Shown one piece after another: positions 1 to 5,286 of a stretch of 5,286 bases of DNA. This DNA is from Candidatus Thorarchaeota archaeon. GTDB lineage: Archaea; Asgardarchaeota; Thorarchaeia; Thorarchaeales; Thorarchaeaceae. Below the pieces are notes generated by a model that was not told the origin of the DNA, ran no database searches, and worked only from the letters and a program-made list of their open reading frames with translations. The DNA is taken from positions 1 to 5,286 of the forward strand of contig DXJI01000004.1 in assembly GCA_019057595.1 (NCBI GenBank), read 5' to 3'. A program made the position numbers and the translations under genes. The first letter of the stretch is position 1. The number at the start of each line of letters is the position of its first letter.

Positions 1-933
1 GGATATCTCCAGTATATGATTGAGCGCTACCTTGCACTGTGGGGTGAAGAACGAACCCGACAGTTCCTAAAGGCGTGTGAGAATCCCATCAGATCATCGA
101 TTAGGGTCAACACGCTCAAAGCCACCAACGACGTAGTACTTGAACGCCTGAGAAAGAAATCGGTAGTCATCGATGCGATTCCGTGGCTCGACTATGGTTT
201 CTTAGCAGATTTTCAAGGAAAATCACCAGGAGCAATGGTGGAACATATGCTCGGTTTCTACTACGTACAGGGGGTTCCCTCAATGACTGTAGTGGGTGTG
301 TTAGACCCACAACCAGGTGAAACCGTCCTCGATCTTGCCGCGGCACCCGGTGGCAAAACGACTCTTATTGCTCAGATGATGCAGAACTCAGGGATGGTCA
401 TTGCAGTTGAACAGGATAGAATACGAATGGCCAGTCTCAAGAGCAACATCATCCGATGTGGCGTGACCAACTCGCTAGTTCTTAGAGGCGACGCAAGAAA
501 ACTTGACGATCTCGGATACAAGCCAGACAGGATACTACTCGATGCACCCTGTTCAGGAGAGGGTCTGATTCCCCTAGACCCAACCAGGAAGACAAGTAAA
601 ACCATGGCAGACATCAGGTACTGTGCAACCCGAGAAGATGAGATGCTTGATGCTGCGGTCAATGCTCTTGCAGAGGGAGGTACTATAGTTTACTCAACCT
701 GTTCTATTGCTCCCGAAGAGAATGAATACGTAGTGGATGACATTCTGAAGAGATACCCAGAGATGGAAGTCGTCGAGATACCCCTTGACTTTGGGGTACC
801 GGGATACTCTGAGCCCTATGGCATCAAGTTACACGAGTCACTGACCCGCGCGAGACGATTTCTACCACATCTACACGGGACTGAAGGATTCTTCATCTGC
901 AAGATGCAGAAAAAGGAGGGTGCGAGTACATGA
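1..933 (+). CDS. RNA (cytosine-C5) methyltransferase, NOL1/NOP2/Sun family, 5'-partial
   Basis: SAM-dependent enzyme that methylates cytosine C5 in rRNA or tRNA; the exact target cannot be read from sequence. The frame is open from base 1, and the residues before the first ATG (position 16) already look like family sequence (GYLQY before MIERYL). No Shine-Dalgarno precedes that ATG, so the true start is probably upstream of the window. Counting from the ATG at 16, visible motifs are: SIRVNTLK near 28-35, typical of the N-terminal RNA-binding part; the SAM-binding motif I LDLAAAPGGKTT (105-116); acidic E132 after the second strand and D159 in GDARKL; motif IV DAPCSGEG (176-183) with C179; and motif VI STCS (227-230) with C229. 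In this family the motif VI cysteine is the nucleophile and the motif IV cysteine aids product release, and both are present. The C-terminus carries the family-typical PHLHGTEGFFICK. The enzyme looks intact and active. Its stop overlaps the start of the NIP7-like gene, indicating translational coupling. Confidence 0.93.
   Translation, partial: GYLQYMIERYLALWGEERTRQFLKACENPIRSSIRVNTLKATNDVVLERLRKKSVVIDAIPWLDYGFLADFQGKSPGAMVEHMLGFYYVQGVPSMTVVGVLDPQPGETVLDLAAAPGGKTTLIAQMMQNSGMVIAVEQDRIRMASLKSNIIRCGVTNSLVLRGDARKLDDLGYKPDRILLDAPCSGEGLIPLDPTRKTSKTMADIRYCATREDEMLDAAVNALAEGGTIVYSTCSIAPEENEYVVDDILKRYPEMEVVEIPLDFGVPGYSEPYGIKLHESLTRARRFLPHLHGTEGFFICKMQKKEGAST
914..920 (+). promoter_or_regulatory. Strong Shine-Dalgarno for the NIP7-like gene
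   Basis: AGGAGGG lies nine bases before the ATG at 930, inside the last codons of the methyltransferase gene. It fixes the ATG at 930 as the start and, with the ATGA stop/start overlap at 930-933, supports coupled translation of the two genes. Confidence 0.8.
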
Positions 934-1475
934 CCCTGACACTTGTCGATCCTGTCGAATGGACAGCTCTGATAGAGCAAATCGACGACGAGTTCGGAGA
1001 AGGAGTGACCAAGAGTCTACTTGGAGACCGTGTACCAGTTGTCCTTTCTCGAAACAGAACCAAGACCTTCTTCCTCATCCCAAGTAGCTGGATGAGTCAT
1101 GCTACCGAGGAGGAGGACGATAGATTAGACATTCAGTTCATAGGAAAGGAGCTTGGCTCTATCGCCAAAGGCAGGCTCAGGCTGAGTCTTCAAATTCTCA
1201 GCGAACTGAAAGAACTGACCGATATGTCTATTCTTGTAACCAGACACGCTGCTGAGGCATTCACCTACGGGAGAAGCATCCTCAAGGAGTCAGTCATGGA
1301 ACTGAATCCAGAGTTAAAGAGGCGTCAGCGCGTCCTCGTACTAAATGAGGCCAATGAATGTCTTGGAATTGCCCAACTCTTTATAGATGGAAACAAACTG
1401 AATCGTATTGGCAAAGAGGAACTTGTTGCGAAGAACCTCGTGGACATTGGATGGTTCATCAGACGTCTTGGTTAG
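930..1475 (+). CDS. nip7: NIP7-like ribosome biogenesis protein with C-terminal PUA domain
   Basis: 181-residue protein recognised as a NIP7 homologue, an RNA-binding factor that acts in large-subunit rRNA maturation in eukaryotes and has archaeal counterparts. The N-terminal alpha/beta part (1-100) contains GKELG (72-76) and GRLRLSLQIL (81-90), which line up with the G-x-x-F-G and KFRLHVTAL segments I recall from eukaryotic NIP7. The PUA domain spans about 107-181: AEAFTYGRSILKESV (108-122) corresponds to the NIP7 segment AEQSFLYGNHVLKS, VLVLNEANECLGIAQL (135-150) is the PUA core, and VDIGWFIRR (171-179) matches the ADIGEYVR ending. Length matches the usual 160-180 residues. It follows the RNA m5C methyltransferase with a four-base overlap and a strong ribosome binding site, so the two are almost certainly one operon. 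Its TAG stop overlaps the stop of the convergent PAC2-family gene. The alternative label is simply 'PUA domain protein', but the two-domain match makes NIP7 the better call. Confidence 0.85.
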   Translation: MTLTLVDPVEWTALIEQIDDEFGEGVTKSLLGDRVPVVLSRNRTKTFFLIPSSWMSHATEEEDDRLDIQFIGKELGSIAKGRLRLSLQILSELKELTDMSILVTRHAAEAFTYGRSILKESVMELNPELKRRQRVLVLNEANECLGIAQLFIDGNKLNRIGKEELVAKNLVDIGWFIRRLG

Positions 1476-2212
1476 ACGAACATGTCACTCGACCGATCAG
1501 AGGACTCAATCGACTTACGCATCTTCTCAAGCCTCTCGATTTCGGCAGATTCCTTCAGTAGTTCTTCTACATTCGCTCCAACACCATAGACCTCATTGAT
1601 CTTCTCAAGCATCGTGGCTGCAGAACGCGGATCGGGTCTTCCTCTGGTTGCGTAGGTTAGGAGACCTATCGCAGGAGCATCACGCATCTCAAGCTCAGCT
1701 AAGAACAGAGCGAGAGGTCCAGCAACAAAGAGACCTTCTTCCAGCAGTGGAACTGACCACTTCTCAAGAAGTTCTCTGTAGGCAGTTGTAGGTACGCTTC
1801 TCATGTCCTCGCCATCCTCCTTGAAGCTGGCATCTAATCCACCAAGGAGTAACGTTTCTGCAAAGTTGCTCTCAGCAACCCATGTTGCCAAACGGTCTAT
1901 GAAACCCCACTGTTCTGACTGGTGTGGTTGAAAACGAGGGACTAAGAAAATCATCTTCTTTGGTTCGTATGAGTATAGTTCGAATGGAAGCACGAGTCTT
2001 TCATTCTCCATGGAAACGAAGAGTGGAAGCATGTCGCTTTTGATGAAACCAACTCTTTCAGCCTCGAGGGTCCTGGTGAGATGAGCTGTGCTCAGGAAAC
2101 CGACTTCGCCGAGACCATGAAAACCACAGATGAATGTCGAACCTGATTTGATCTTGAAGTCCTTCTTCAGAATGATTTTGAAAGATGAATCAGTGGTAGC
2201 TACGAAAGCCAT
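1472..2212 (-). CDS. PAC2-family proteasome assembly chaperone (PbaA/PbaB-like)
   Basis: 246-residue protein of the PAC2 / archaeal Pba family, whose characterised members assist assembly of the 20S proteasome or dock on it. Visible features are the family glycine motif GFHGLGEVG (30-38) after a hydrophobic strand; VGFIKSDMLP (54-63), where relatives have a conserved 'IG-x-I-x-S-x-x-F-P' stretch; LLLGGLD (121-127); and VAGPLALFLAELEMRDAPAIGLLTYAT (163-189), the usual 'G-x-x-G-x-L-L-x-x-A' region. A C-terminal helical tail begins with PDPRSAATMLEKINEVYG (193-210), continues as a charged, probably coiled-coil helix (214-237), and ends in SSDMFV. The last three residues, Met-Phe-Val, fit a variant of the hydrophobic-tyrosine-any (HbYX) proteasome docking motif with Phe for Tyr. 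The ATG at 2212 is chosen because the protein begins there with a normal N-terminus and has a weak GAGG site 11 bases upstream. The gene is transcribed divergently from the helicase-like gene and converges on nip7. The exact subgroup (PbaA, PbaB or an uncharacterised one) is not resolved. Confidence 0.85.
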   Translation of the reverse strand: MAFVATTDSSFKIILKKDFKIKSGSTFICGFHGLGEVGFLSTAHLTRTLEAERVGFIKSDMLPLFVSMENERLVLPFELYSYEPKKMIFLVPRFQPHQSEQWGFIDRLATWVAESNFAETLLLGGLDASFKEDGEDMRSVPTTAYRELLEKWSVPLLEEGLFVAGPLALFLAELEMRDAPAIGLLTYATRGRPDPRSAATMLEKINEVYGVGANVEELLKESAEIERLEKMRKSIESSDRSSDMFV

Positions 2213-2460: not shown

Positions 2461-2476
2461 GGAGTGGGACTATTTG
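2461..2476 (+). promoter_or_regulatory. Ribosome binding site and TTG start of the helicase-like gene
   Basis: GGAGTG at 2461-2466 is followed after seven bases by TTG at 2474. The upstream frame has no in-frame ATG or GTG close by; the nearby ATG at 2443 is in another frame. The well-spaced Shine-Dalgarno therefore supports the TTG as the initiator. Confidence 0.7.
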
Positions 2477-4666
2477 AGCACTCTTAGGGAACTGGAACTC
2501 CAACAGGTCGCGCCCCGTTTGTTGGAGTTGCTCAGACGGCAGGGACTTGCTTCACTCAGTGATTTCCAGTCTCTTGCTTTGGACCAGAGGATCATGAGAG
2601 GAAACAGTCAGCTCCTTGTAACTTACGACTATAATGAGGCATATCTCGTTGGAGAGATTGCGTTACTCAATCGAGTTGCCTCAGACCATCGAGCCCGCAC
2701 TGTTGTACTCTGTCCGAACCCATATCAGGCTGAGAAGAGGTTCCAGTCCCTCAGTCATCAATGTAGTCGTTTAGGCATAGAAGCCTCACAGATCATCAGA
2801 AGAAGGGATGCCACAAAGGACACCATAGATAGTAGAGTGATAGTCACAACCTACACCTCCTTTGACATTGCTACAAGGGTAACCCCGGAGATTCTTGATG
2901 GGATCGTCTATGTTCTCATCGACCGACTGGACCTGATAGGTCAGCCACGAATTGGAGCCAGTCTTGAGACTGTTCTCGTGAGCCTATTGGGAAAACCGAA
3001 AATCCAGTATGTAGCCATCTGTCCACCCCTCGAAGACATCGATGAACTGAGTAATTGGTTGAACGCTGAGATTGTTGAAGACCCAAAGACTGACGTGAAG
3101 GTCATCTTCAGTGTGAAAGCCGTCGAAGACTCTAGGGAGTCCATAGCTGACCTCACACAGTTCGTACAGTATCGACAAGGACAGGTGATGATTCTCTGCG
3201 CAAACATCAGTACGTCAGAAGAGCTTGCACTAGAATTGGCTGGAATCAAACAGGGCTCTGCAGTCCTTGACCTGCAACTCTCTCCCGAGCACAAGGACGA
3301 CCTCCTGTACCTAGCGGAGGACATCAGAGAGAAATATCCACAATGTCAGACCACCACAGACCTTGGAAAGACAATTTCCAGAGGTGTTGCATTCTTTCAC
3401 GAAGGGGTTAGTATGACCCAGAGAAGGATTATTTCTTCAGCCTGGGAGGATGGTGTGCTCCCTGTCATTGTTATGCCAACAAGGTTTGCAATCGCGAGTG
3501 GTTTCAGGGCCTCTGTTGTGTTCCTGATGGGAGTTTTCATGCAGGAGTTTGGAATGGAGATTTCCCAGGAGGATGCGGTCACTATGTTGTCTGAGTGGGA
3601 GCTTAGCGATGTCCTCGAGGCTGCAGGAAGACGACGAATCGATAACGAGGCGTTTGGTATAGTTGTTGTCGATAGTGAAATCGAGAAGACCAGGGTGATA
3701 GCCAAGTACTTCGAAACTGATTCAGAAGGCAATCTACAACCAAGGTTGGGAGAAGTAGACAGTGTGATGGATGAAACAGAGAATGTTCAGGACTTGGTTC
3801 TGAGGCAGCTCTGCGGAAAGACTGACGACGACGAAGACCCATTTTCCATAATTGACCGAACTCTGTGGGGAAGTGCCAGTCGAGTGACTGACTTGAGTCA
3901 GACAGAGACACAGGACGAGGCTGCAGTTGACAGTCGTCTTGCCTCGCGTTCCACTAGGTCAACATTTGCAAGGGCAAAGGAGATTCCTGACAGCAGTGTG
4001 AAGGTCGTTTCTGTGAGACCAGACAAGATTGAAGGCCTCGTGCACAGTGGCAGTCGAGAAATATGGCATTATACGACTCTAAGATCCAAGGATGGGGTCT
4101 CGTGCTCATGCGAATCGTGGAAGTATCAGGGAATCAGGAAACATCGACTCTGCAAGCATCTTGTGAAGTTCTCTCGATATGCCTTGGATAATGAGGACAC
4201 GAAACCATATGCAGCCGGAGTGATACTCCAAGCTCTTCGAGGACTTGAGGTCTATGGTGAGCTTGAGAATGACGGACTGATTGTTCGCGACAATGAGATA
4301 ACACGGTGCACGGACTTGGGAAAGAGTGCGGCAGTGCTTGGGGTTCCTGTGAAGGACACCAAGAGAGTGATGCGAGCCATCAGTGATAAGAAGAGTGATC
4401 TGAAGAAGATGCTCAGGAGTGTGGTTCTAGCACGGAAGACCCTGCCAAAGGATGTCGTGAAGCGTGTGTTGGACAGATTGCCAGCAAAGAGCATCGAGGA
4501 AATCATCTGTGAAGAGGACATGCCAGGGATCATAGAGAATTGCCTAGAGGAGCTTGAATACATCAACTCAATCCTTCTCAAGCTGCTGAGCTCGAAGCAC
4601 AGTGCCAGAAAAGAGAGTAAAAAGCTCCATTCCAATCTCTTGATGCTGTTAGAGTCCATGAAGTAA
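2474..4666 (+). CDS. Hel308/Ski2-like helicase-derived protein with degenerate ATPase motifs and inserted SWIM zinc finger
   Basis: 730 residues with the order of a Hel308/Ski2 helicase, but the catalytic motifs are lost. Q-motif-like F31-Q32 is followed by LLVTYDYNEAYLVGEIAL (47-64). This aligns with the motif I region 'LLvvPTaSGKTliaEiAl', with GKT replaced by E55-A56-Y57. Motif Ia is CPNPYQAEKRF (80-90). VLIDRLDLIG (147-156) stands in motif II, so DEIH becomes D150-R-L-D153. Conserved R159/G161 and LE (164-165) follow. Motif III 'SAT' is CPP (183-185), then the typical ELSNWLNA (191-198). The RecA2 landmarks GQVMILCAN (236-244), GVAFFHEGV (304-312), MPTRFAIASGFRA (334-346) and AAGRRR (383-388) are recognisable but altered. 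A 'DPFSIIDRTLWG' helix (455-466) resembles the Hel308 segment before its winged helix. A SWIM zinc finger follows, C544-x-C546-x13-C560-x-H562, then a winged-helix-like stretch (about 583-635, with CTDLGKSAAVLGVP) and a basic, leucine-rich helical tail. It probably binds nucleic acid without helicase activity; the role is unknown. The start is TTG. Confidence 0.8.
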   Translation: MSTLRELELQQVAPRLLELLRRQGLASLSDFQSLALDQRIMRGNSQLLVTYDYNEAYLVGEIALLNRVASDHRARTVVLCPNPYQAEKRFQSLSHQCSRLGIEASQIIRRRDATKDTIDSRVIVTTYTSFDIATRVTPEILDGIVYVLIDRLDLIGQPRIGASLETVLVSLLGKPKIQYVAICPPLEDIDELSNWLNAEIVEDPKTDVKVIFSVKAVEDSRESIADLTQFVQYRQGQVMILCANISTSEELALELAGIKQGSAVLDLQLSPEHKDDLLYLAEDIREKYPQCQTTTDLGKTISRGVAFFHEGVSMTQRRIISSAWEDGVLPVIVMPTRFAIASGFRASVVFLMGVFMQEFGMEISQEDAVTMLSEWELSDVLEAAGRRRIDNEAFGIVVVDSEIEKTRVIAKYFETDSEGNLQPRLGEVDSVMDETENVQDLVLRQLCGKTDDDEDPFSIIDRTLWGSASRVTDLSQTETQDEAAVDSRLASRSTRSTFARAKEIPDSSVKVVSVRPDKIEGLVHSGSREIWHYTTLRSKDGVSCSCESWKYQGIRKHRLCKHLVKFSRYALDNEDTKPYAAGVILQALRGLEVYGELENDGLIVRDNEITRCTDLGKSAAVLGVPVKDTKRVMRAISDKKSDLKKMLRSVVLARKTLPKDVVKRVLDRLPAKSIEEIICEEDMPGIIENCLEELEYINSILLKLLSSKHSARKESKKLHSNLLMLLESMK

Positions 4667-4694: not shown

Positions 4695-4710
4695 CCTAGC
4701 CCCTAGGTGA
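4695..4710 (+). promoter_or_regulatory. Shine-Dalgarno of the succinate-CoA ligase gene inside a perfect small hairpin
   Basis: AGGTGA at 4705-4710 lies five bases before the ATG at 4716 and is a good ribosome binding site. Its first three bases form the 3' arm of the inverted repeat CCTAG (4695-4699), loop CCC, CTAGG (4703-4707), extendable by one G-U pair (4694/4708). Folded in RNA, the hairpin would partly cover the Shine-Dalgarno. As DNA it could equally be a small dyad for a regulator. Neither role is proven. Confidence 0.5.
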
Positions 4711-4715
4711 ACTCC

Positions 4716-5286
4716 ATGAAGTTGTTTGAACATGAGGCGAAGGACATCTTCCGAGCCTTCAAAATGCCAACTCCTCCAGGTGGTGTCGCTAAGACTCCGA
4801 AAGAAGCGAAGGAACGAGCTGCAGAAGTCGGGAAACCTGTCGTCGTCAAGGCAATGGTCCTTGCAGGAAAGAGAGGAAAGGCGGGTGGTGTCAAATTCGT
4901 TGACACGCCCCAGGAAGCTGAGAAGGCAGCCGAAGAGATTCTGAAGATGAGAATCAATGACCTGCCAGTCGAGGCAGTCCTGATTGAAGAGAAGCTGGAC
5001 ATCGAACAGGAGATTTATGCTGGTATCACTATTGACAGGAACGAACGCAAGTACGTCGTGATTGGTAGTGCCGCTGGCGGAATGTCAATCGAAGAACTTG
5101 CTGAAGAGAGTCCAGAGAAGATAATCAAGATGCATGTTGATCCAAGCCTTGGGTTTCAACCCTTCGAAGCGAGGCAGATGGCTATCGCTATGGGATTCAA
5201 AGGTAAGCAGATCAACAAGCTTGGAAGCTTCTTCCTGAAGCTCTGGAAGATTGTCGAGGCCTTTGATGTTGAACTCACTGAAATCA
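4716..5286 (+). CDS. sucC: Succinate-CoA ligase (succinyl-CoA synthetase) beta subunit, 3'-partial
   Basis: The first 190 residues of the ATP-grasp beta subunit that, with the alpha subunit, interconverts succinyl-CoA and succinate with ADP or GDP phosphorylation in the TCA cycle (cytoplasmic). The frame is open to the last base, and about 380 residues are usual, so roughly half is seen. Family landmarks in order are MKLFEHEAKDIFRAFKMPTP (1-20), PVVVKAMVLAGKRGKAGGVKF (41-61) with the ATP-grasp loop G-K-R-G-K-A-G-G, LIEEKLDIEQEIYAGITIDR (89-108), ESPEKIIKMHVDP (131-143), and DVELTEI (184-190), which would continue into the conserved 'EINPL' metal-binding region beyond the edge. One visible difference is SAAGG (118-122), where E. 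coli SucC has S-T-E-G-G. The ATG at 4716 is supported by AGGTGA five bases upstream. The gene starts 49 bases after the helicase-like gene on the same strand, so read-through is possible, but the functions are unrelated. The nucleotide (ATP or GTP) cannot be called. Confidence 0.92.
   Translation, partial: MKLFEHEAKDIFRAFKMPTPPGGVAKTPKEAKERAAEVGKPVVVKAMVLAGKRGKAGGVKFVDTPQEAEKAAEEILKMRINDLPVEAVLIEEKLDIEQEIYAGITIDRNERKYVVIGSAAGGMSIEELAEESPEKIIKMHVDPSLGFQPFEARQMAIAMGFKGKQINKLGSFFLKLWKIVEAFDVELTEI

Follow-up and report, generated by a model that had tools for sequence, protein, structure and literature searches.

A very likely ATPase-dead relative of Hel308-type helicases, with a SWIM-like zinc finger, maintained in one class of Thorarchaeota

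Introduction

Pseudohelicases are an already established kind of protein. According to the abstracts of the respective reports, in the parts drawn on here, Utp25 has a helicase-like fold whose catalytic motifs are dispensable (PMC9539457), PriA of D. radiodurans has lost helicase activity and kept DNA binding (PMC4504706), and the C-terminal cassette of Brr2 is Ski2-like and without enzymatic activity, both Brr2 cassettes holding a nucleotide-binding pocket (PMC8220420). The present analysis concerns an open reading frame (ORF) at positions 2474..4666 (forward strand, stop included) of a 5,286-nucleotide stretch of DNA from a Candidatus Thorarchaeota archaeon (GCA_019057595.1, contig DXJI01000004.1), hereafter the window. 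The frame, which begins with TTG, is open over 730 amino acids, the length that a first-pass annotation of the DNA had stated, and its assignment draws on the open frame, on homologues and on a predicted fold. Very likely, the product is related to Hel308-type helicases, is dead as an ATPase and is maintained. Among the titles and opening lines of abstracts consulted, neither this family nor any archaeal pseudohelicase was found.

Results and discussion

Similarity to Hel308 and the predicted fold

By sequence comparison the similarity of the pseudohelicase to Hel308 is well beyond chance, in agreement with the Hel308/Ski2 relatedness originally proposed for it. Four NCBIfam models of archaeal DNA helicases match residues 9-427 (E 1.3e-28 to 2.6e-18); one of the four, NF040935, named Hel308, shows similarity across residues 10-427 (E 6.5e-24), and the Hel308 of PDB entry 2zj2 is matched at E 5e-21. 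The curated cut-off of NF040935 is not reached (84 versus 1200 bits), which is of little weight here because a canonical Hel308 from Thorarchaeota misses it too (619 bits).

The AlphaFold2 (AF2) model, with its structural match to Hel308, predicts tandem RecA domains, a winged helix and a ratchet domain. The structural alignment spans residues 8-728 of the pseudohelicase and stops near residue 656 of the 700 residues of 2zj8; canonical Hel308 carries a C-terminal helix-hairpin-helix domain 5. With approximate boundaries drawn by inspection, RecA-like domain 1 would occupy residues ~25-205 (2546..3088, forward strand like all parts of the gene), RecA-like domain 2 residues ~206-425 (3089..3748), and a linker with the first half of a winged-helix-like domain residues ~426-500 (3749..3973), while the second half of the winged helix and the ratchet-like domain 4 would follow at residues ~576-727 (4199..4654). 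Averaged over 28 aligned rows, conservation is highest in the first 24 residues (0.84) and in residues 501-575 (0.78), and lower in the RecA domains (0.67 in each), the linker (0.60) and the remaining part (0.59).

Loss of the ATPase motifs

Motif states were counted in 160 non-identical sequences of the pseudohelicase family, including near-duplicates of a single gene, pooled from the 120 proteins of alignment A1 (the window protein and 119 of the best 120 of 208 matches, a listed duplicate of the window protein being left out) and from the proteins of 45 loci. Letters are present at Walker A in 153 of these sequences, at the DExH box in 156, at SAT in 156 and at motif VI in 157. The ATPase residues are lost family-wide, and several of the replacements are fixed. 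Alignment to motif-intact paralogues confirms the mapping made at first sight, in which GKT has become E55-A56-Y57, DExH has become D150-R151-L152-D153 and SAT has become C183-P184-P185. The former Walker A (TYDYNEAYL, residues 50-58, 2621..2647) has D52 in 152/152 and E55 in 153/153 sequences and no Lys at 56; the former DExH box (DRLD, residues 150-153, 2921..2932) has both R151 and D153 in 156/156; the former motif III is CPP (residues 183-185, 3020..3028). Lys56, Glu151, SAT and Arg383 occur in no family sequence with letters at these sites (153-157), and the Walker A Thr and DExH His are missing in the same way. The acidic Walker B residue is variable (D in 137, E in 17, R in 1 and K in 1).

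Motif VI (DVLEAAGRRR, residues 379-388, 3608..3637) is not shortened to GRRR, as had been suggested, since QMLGRAGRP of the paralogues pairs gap-free with DVLEAAGRR. Its first Arg is gone, replaced by Ala or Ser in 155/157 sequences, and its second, R386, is retained as Arg in 148 and as Arg or Lys in 156 of the 157. The earlier statement that all core motifs are lost goes too far: F31-Q32 of the Q motif is invariant, and parts of motifs Ia, Ib, IV and V can still be recognised. Of the six classical positions (G, K, T, D, E, H), three are invariant, as against 26/401 across the RecA region (hypergeometric p 0.004), and four of six as against 97/401 at the 95% conservation level (p 0.03), figures that are description only, because they were computed after conservation had been seen and ignore kinship.

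A rebuilt pocket that still binds ATP or slowly turns it over, making the protein a degenerate yet working ATPase, would be in keeping with the invariance of F31-Q32 and G385 and with the frequent retention of R386. It is nevertheless highly improbable, given the family-wide absence of the catalytic residues listed above and the two sequences in which the Walker B acidic residue has become Arg or Lys.

A SWIM-like zinc finger

The first-pass annotation had overlooked a C-x-C...C-x-H pattern at residues 544-562, within a SWIM-like zinc finger (GVSCSCESWKYQGIRKHRLCKHLVKF, residues 541-566, 4094..4171) that is apparently inserted in the winged-helix domain, between its two halves as the secondary structure of the model reads. 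The finger is among the best-kept parts of the pseudohelicase, its zinc ligands being invariant in the family (C544 and C546 in 155/155, C560 and H562 in 157/157). It is called SWIM-like because its score against Pfam PF04434 (SWIM) falls under the Pfam cut-off; 39/45 family members match that model at E 0.01. The finger loop of the dead copies is basic (CSCESWKYQGIRKHRLCKHL), and that of motif-intact Thorarchaeota copies resembles CSCGNPLDETGILCMHL.

Retention under selection

The pseudohelicase is present in 45/47 genomes of one class, that of genome G023 (titled Candidatus Thorarchaeota; Asgard archaea), counting cut copies in G220, G222 and G223. By the method of Nei and Gojobori (NG86), its ratio of nonsynonymous to synonymous substitution rates (dN/dS) runs from 0.084 to 0.162 among the closest 14 of 60 pairs, and that of canonical Hel308 from 0.085 to 0.157 among the closest 14 of 24; the motif-intact paralogue described below has 0.040-0.106 in the 5/11 pairs with finite dS, two of them with dS above 2. 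A PAC2-family gene is the divergent upstream neighbour, no more than 1.1 kb away, in 36/36 loci with enough DNA; nine loci end before that point. The gene directly downstream is sucC in 42/43 loci, the exception being an N-interrupted copy; two further loci end at the pseudohelicase gene. At six PAC2 loci looked at outside the class, the pseudohelicase is not found.

Missing motifs are the sole point in favour of a decaying pseudogene, a lone mutant or a sequencing artefact, explanations that are contradicted by a motif state common to 160 non-identical sequences, by a dN/dS of about 0.1, by conserved synteny and by the invariant zinc ligands, and that can be set aside with near certainty. The original view of a maintained, non-catalytic helicase derivative rather than a decaying pseudogene is borne out, and the checks proposed with it gave consistent answers: the altered motif positions are shared by orthologues, dN/dS is low, the tandem RecA fold is predicted, and a separate canonical Hel308 was found in 28/36 genomes searched. 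Neither orthologues with intact GKT and DExH nor a model devoid of tandem RecA domains turned up.

A motif-intact paralogue as the likely parent lineage

The better profile partner of the dead family is not canonical Hel308 but a motif-intact, SWIM-bearing Hel308 paralogue. Against 14 SWIM-Hel308 proteins the family profile aligns over 703 columns with a score of 589, full length and finger included, and against 14 canonical Hel308 proteins over 455 columns with a score of 225, ending at about residue 476; the two target alignments are unequal in diversity (effective sequence number, Neff, 4.2 and 2.7). The Asgard paralogue (L065, L066, L081, L084, L117-L131) shares with the pseudohelicase the order RecA1, RecA2, winged helix with SWIM-like finger, and domain 4, but in Thorarchaeota it differs in having PTGSGKT, DE[IV][QH] and QMLGRAGR and another finger loop. 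Canonical Hel308/Hjm (PDB 2zj2, 2p6r, 2va8; NF040935) shares the predicted fold over residues 8-728, but its ATPase motifs are intact, and the C-x-C...C-x-H pattern is absent from the consensus of 14 Thorarchaeota copies.

A profile of the C-terminal part (A3), run on 227 genomes from the phylum to which G023 belongs, matches 56 of them: in 42 the match is strong (E <= 6e-86), and in 14 even the best match is weak (E 2e-20 to 1e-6). All 42 strong matches fall within the class of G023; among the 180 genomes outside it there is no strong match, and 13 have a weak one. The 14 weakly matching genomes encode open-frame helicases of 709-887 amino acids with a finger pattern, GKT and a DE motif II; four of the 14 have lost other motifs. 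Within the class, the paralogue occurs in 30/47 genomes at E 1e-80, some copies being fragments, and PTGSGKT is present in 24/24 copies whose listed frame covers Walker A, a count that does not include L169, which has an inner stop. In a protein search with a copy named Baldrarchaeia, the best 120 of 7050 matches include relatives, whether or not they carry a finger, that bear the names Lokiarchaeota, Hermodarchaeota, Hodarchaeota and Njordarchaeota.

Partial erosion is seen in SWIM-Hel308 copies of other Asgards, L118 and L119 (G037, G202) and L121 and L122 (G209, G210; Odin-like), all with Walker A intact: two have DEIN and SPP or CPP for SAT, and two more have DEFQ, SDI and GKAGN. From these four copies, the lineage may be prone to motor loss. 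In L121 and L122 an ORF that begins with MPGREILVLHVGQGGNQIGYNFW is situated ~4 kb from the gene and by eye has the look of a tubulin homologue.

Genomic setting

In the window, the gene is preceded by an RsmB/F-type RNA methyltransferase gene (1..933, forward, start cut by the window), a UPF0113/PUA-domain protein gene (930..1475, forward) and the divergent PAC2-family gene (1472..2212, reverse), and is followed by SucC, the beta subunit of succinate-CoA ligase (4707..5285, forward, end cut by the window). In 7/7 genomes compared it stands close to the start of an array that also comprises sucC, sucD, two beta-CASP proteins (of which one has the KH domain of FttA), TruD, PTH2, a geranylgeranyl-reductase-like protein, Pus10, L21e, Rpo4, KsgA, a proteasome subunit, SepF and a diverged DEAD helicase of ~890 amino acids; genes for Alba, DUF655, FKBP, PUA, methyltransferase and LSm proteins are present in five or six of the seven arrays. 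Array proteins of G003 and G031 were named by Pfam. At six loci (L068, L070, L072, L073, L075, L078) a diverged Hel308-like helicase of 882-909 amino acids is encoded downstream of the dead gene, at a distance of ~18 kb. This helicase is extended at its N terminus and reads MPPGSGKTF at Walker A and DEL, DEI or DEF, lacking the His, at motif II, with SSRFG in the SAT position and GRIGE in that of motif VI.

Such surroundings could also accommodate an ATP-independent scaffold of translation or ribosome assembly, in which the dead helicase would bind rRNA or the ribosome. The methyltransferase and PUA protein upstream and KsgA, L21e, Pus10 and TruD in the array fit this role, for which Utp25 is a precedent as far as its abstract relates (PMC9539457). 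The nearest genes, however, are PAC2 and sucCD, and the explanation appears unlikely.

The dead and intact sisters occupy different surroundings, since the former lies in the RNA-gene array and the latter, at L131, the one Thorarchaeota locus looked at, amid genes for an XPG-like nuclease, a Rad51-like protein and an XPD-like helicase. Rad51-like proteins are also encoded near the motif-intact gene at L124 and L128, the latter together with an XPG-like nuclease, a Ras-like GTPase and a Roadblock protein, and several long genes around L124, L128 and L131 have no Pfam match. This separation of loci tells against a regulatory partnership in which the dead copy would heterodimerise with the motif-intact SWIM-Hel308, tuning or loading it in DNA repair, as does the occurrence of the dead copy in 45/47 genomes versus 30/47 for the intact one, a difference blurred by incomplete genomes and by the threshold. 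For such a partnership speak the full-length profile match, the frequent coexistence that follows from the presence of the paralogue in 30 of the 47 genomes, and the helicase domains of Pol theta, near in fold, which by the titles of their PDB entries make dimers and tetramers. On balance it is unlikely, if credible.

A proposed static clamp

It is probable that the pseudohelicase works as a nucleic-acid-holding scaffold and not as an engine, because the motor parts are gone in every member examined and the gene is nonetheless kept intact class-wide. The complete interpretation, a Hel308-lineage pseudohelicase acting as a nucleic-acid clamp, is moderately favoured. The ancestor was most likely an Asgard helicase with a SWIM-like finger in its winged-helix domain, a copy of which, in one Thorarchaeota class, would have shed its ATPase residues, come to lie between PAC2 and sucCD and stayed under purifying selection. 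Single-stranded RNA or DNA may be held in the Hel308-type groove formed by RecA domains, winged helix and ratchet, and by the basic finger; there would be no translocation, and the bound nucleic acid would be presented to partners. E55 and R151, both fixed, occupy the former sites of the P-loop Gly and of the catalytic Glu, respectively, and a putative salt bridge between these two residues may close the nucleotide pocket and freeze the clamp. The location of the gene speaks more for partners in transcription or RNA processing than in DNA repair, and this step is the weakest. In its most specific form, the proposal makes the protein a core factor of one Thorarchaeota class: a dead Hel308 clamp, its basic SWIM finger rebuilt, would capture nucleic acid statically, in place of motor action, for the machinery of transcription termination and of RNA 3' ends (FttA, beta-CASP, Rpo4, LSm). 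It would possibly be the first archaeal pseudohelicase to be described, and it has a motif-intact sister in many of the same genomes; so detailed a role is tentative and, taken whole, doubtful. A separate 873-amino-acid Thorarchaeota helicase (L085:1352-3973) matches 7ujb, titled an Eta variant, at E 4e-157, so this genome appears to encode an Eta-like helicase, Eta being a termination factor.

Several observations weigh against the complete interpretation. The Q motif touches adenine in active helicases, and its invariance here means that the pocket may not be wholly empty and may bind nucleotide weakly. Motifs Ia, Ib, IV and V, which touch nucleic acid in active helicases, have drifted from the consensus of the paralogues, so the groove may bind unlike theirs. 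The finger scores 16.6 against the 19.6 bits of PF04434, and the predicted local distance difference test score (pLDDT) of the model is below 50 at residues 550-555. RecA trees unite the dead family in a single clade with 100/100 support, the stem of which is long (2.5 and 2.7); a 69-row tree groups it with the SWIM proteins at 84/65, with a long-branch warning, and a 39-row tree leaving out two Odin-like rows gives a polytomy in which a grouping with canonical Hel308 is not rejected (approximately unbiased test, p-AU 0.40). Descent from the SWIM lineage accordingly rests on shared architecture and profiles, because the trees leave the sister unfixed. FttA lies ~16 kb away in G003, the nearest neighbours, sucCD, have no nucleic-acid link, and most family sequences come from metagenome-assembled genomes.

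Comparison with known pseudohelicases

Many genomes keep both a motif-intact SWIM-Hel308 and its dead sister, each at low dN/dS, a natural case of separation of function that makes an ATP-free role of a Ski2-like clamp directly testable. The pseudohelicase is also a further conserved gene in an RNA-processing neighbourhood of the archaeal group nearest eukaryotes; at comparable match strength it was not found in the other Asgard genomes searched. As far as the abstracts of their reports go, Utp25 and D. radiodurans PriA resemble it in having a helicase-like fold or family membership without catalytic need or activity, but they belong to other helicase families, Utp25 being DEAD-box-like, and their state was established by experiment, whereas the Thorarchaeota protein is known from sequence and models. 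The inactive cassette of Brr2, as far as the opening of its abstract goes, resembles the pseudohelicase in being Ski2-like, and Brr2 is among the fold matches of the pseudohelicase, but the cassette differs in belonging to a two-cassette protein.
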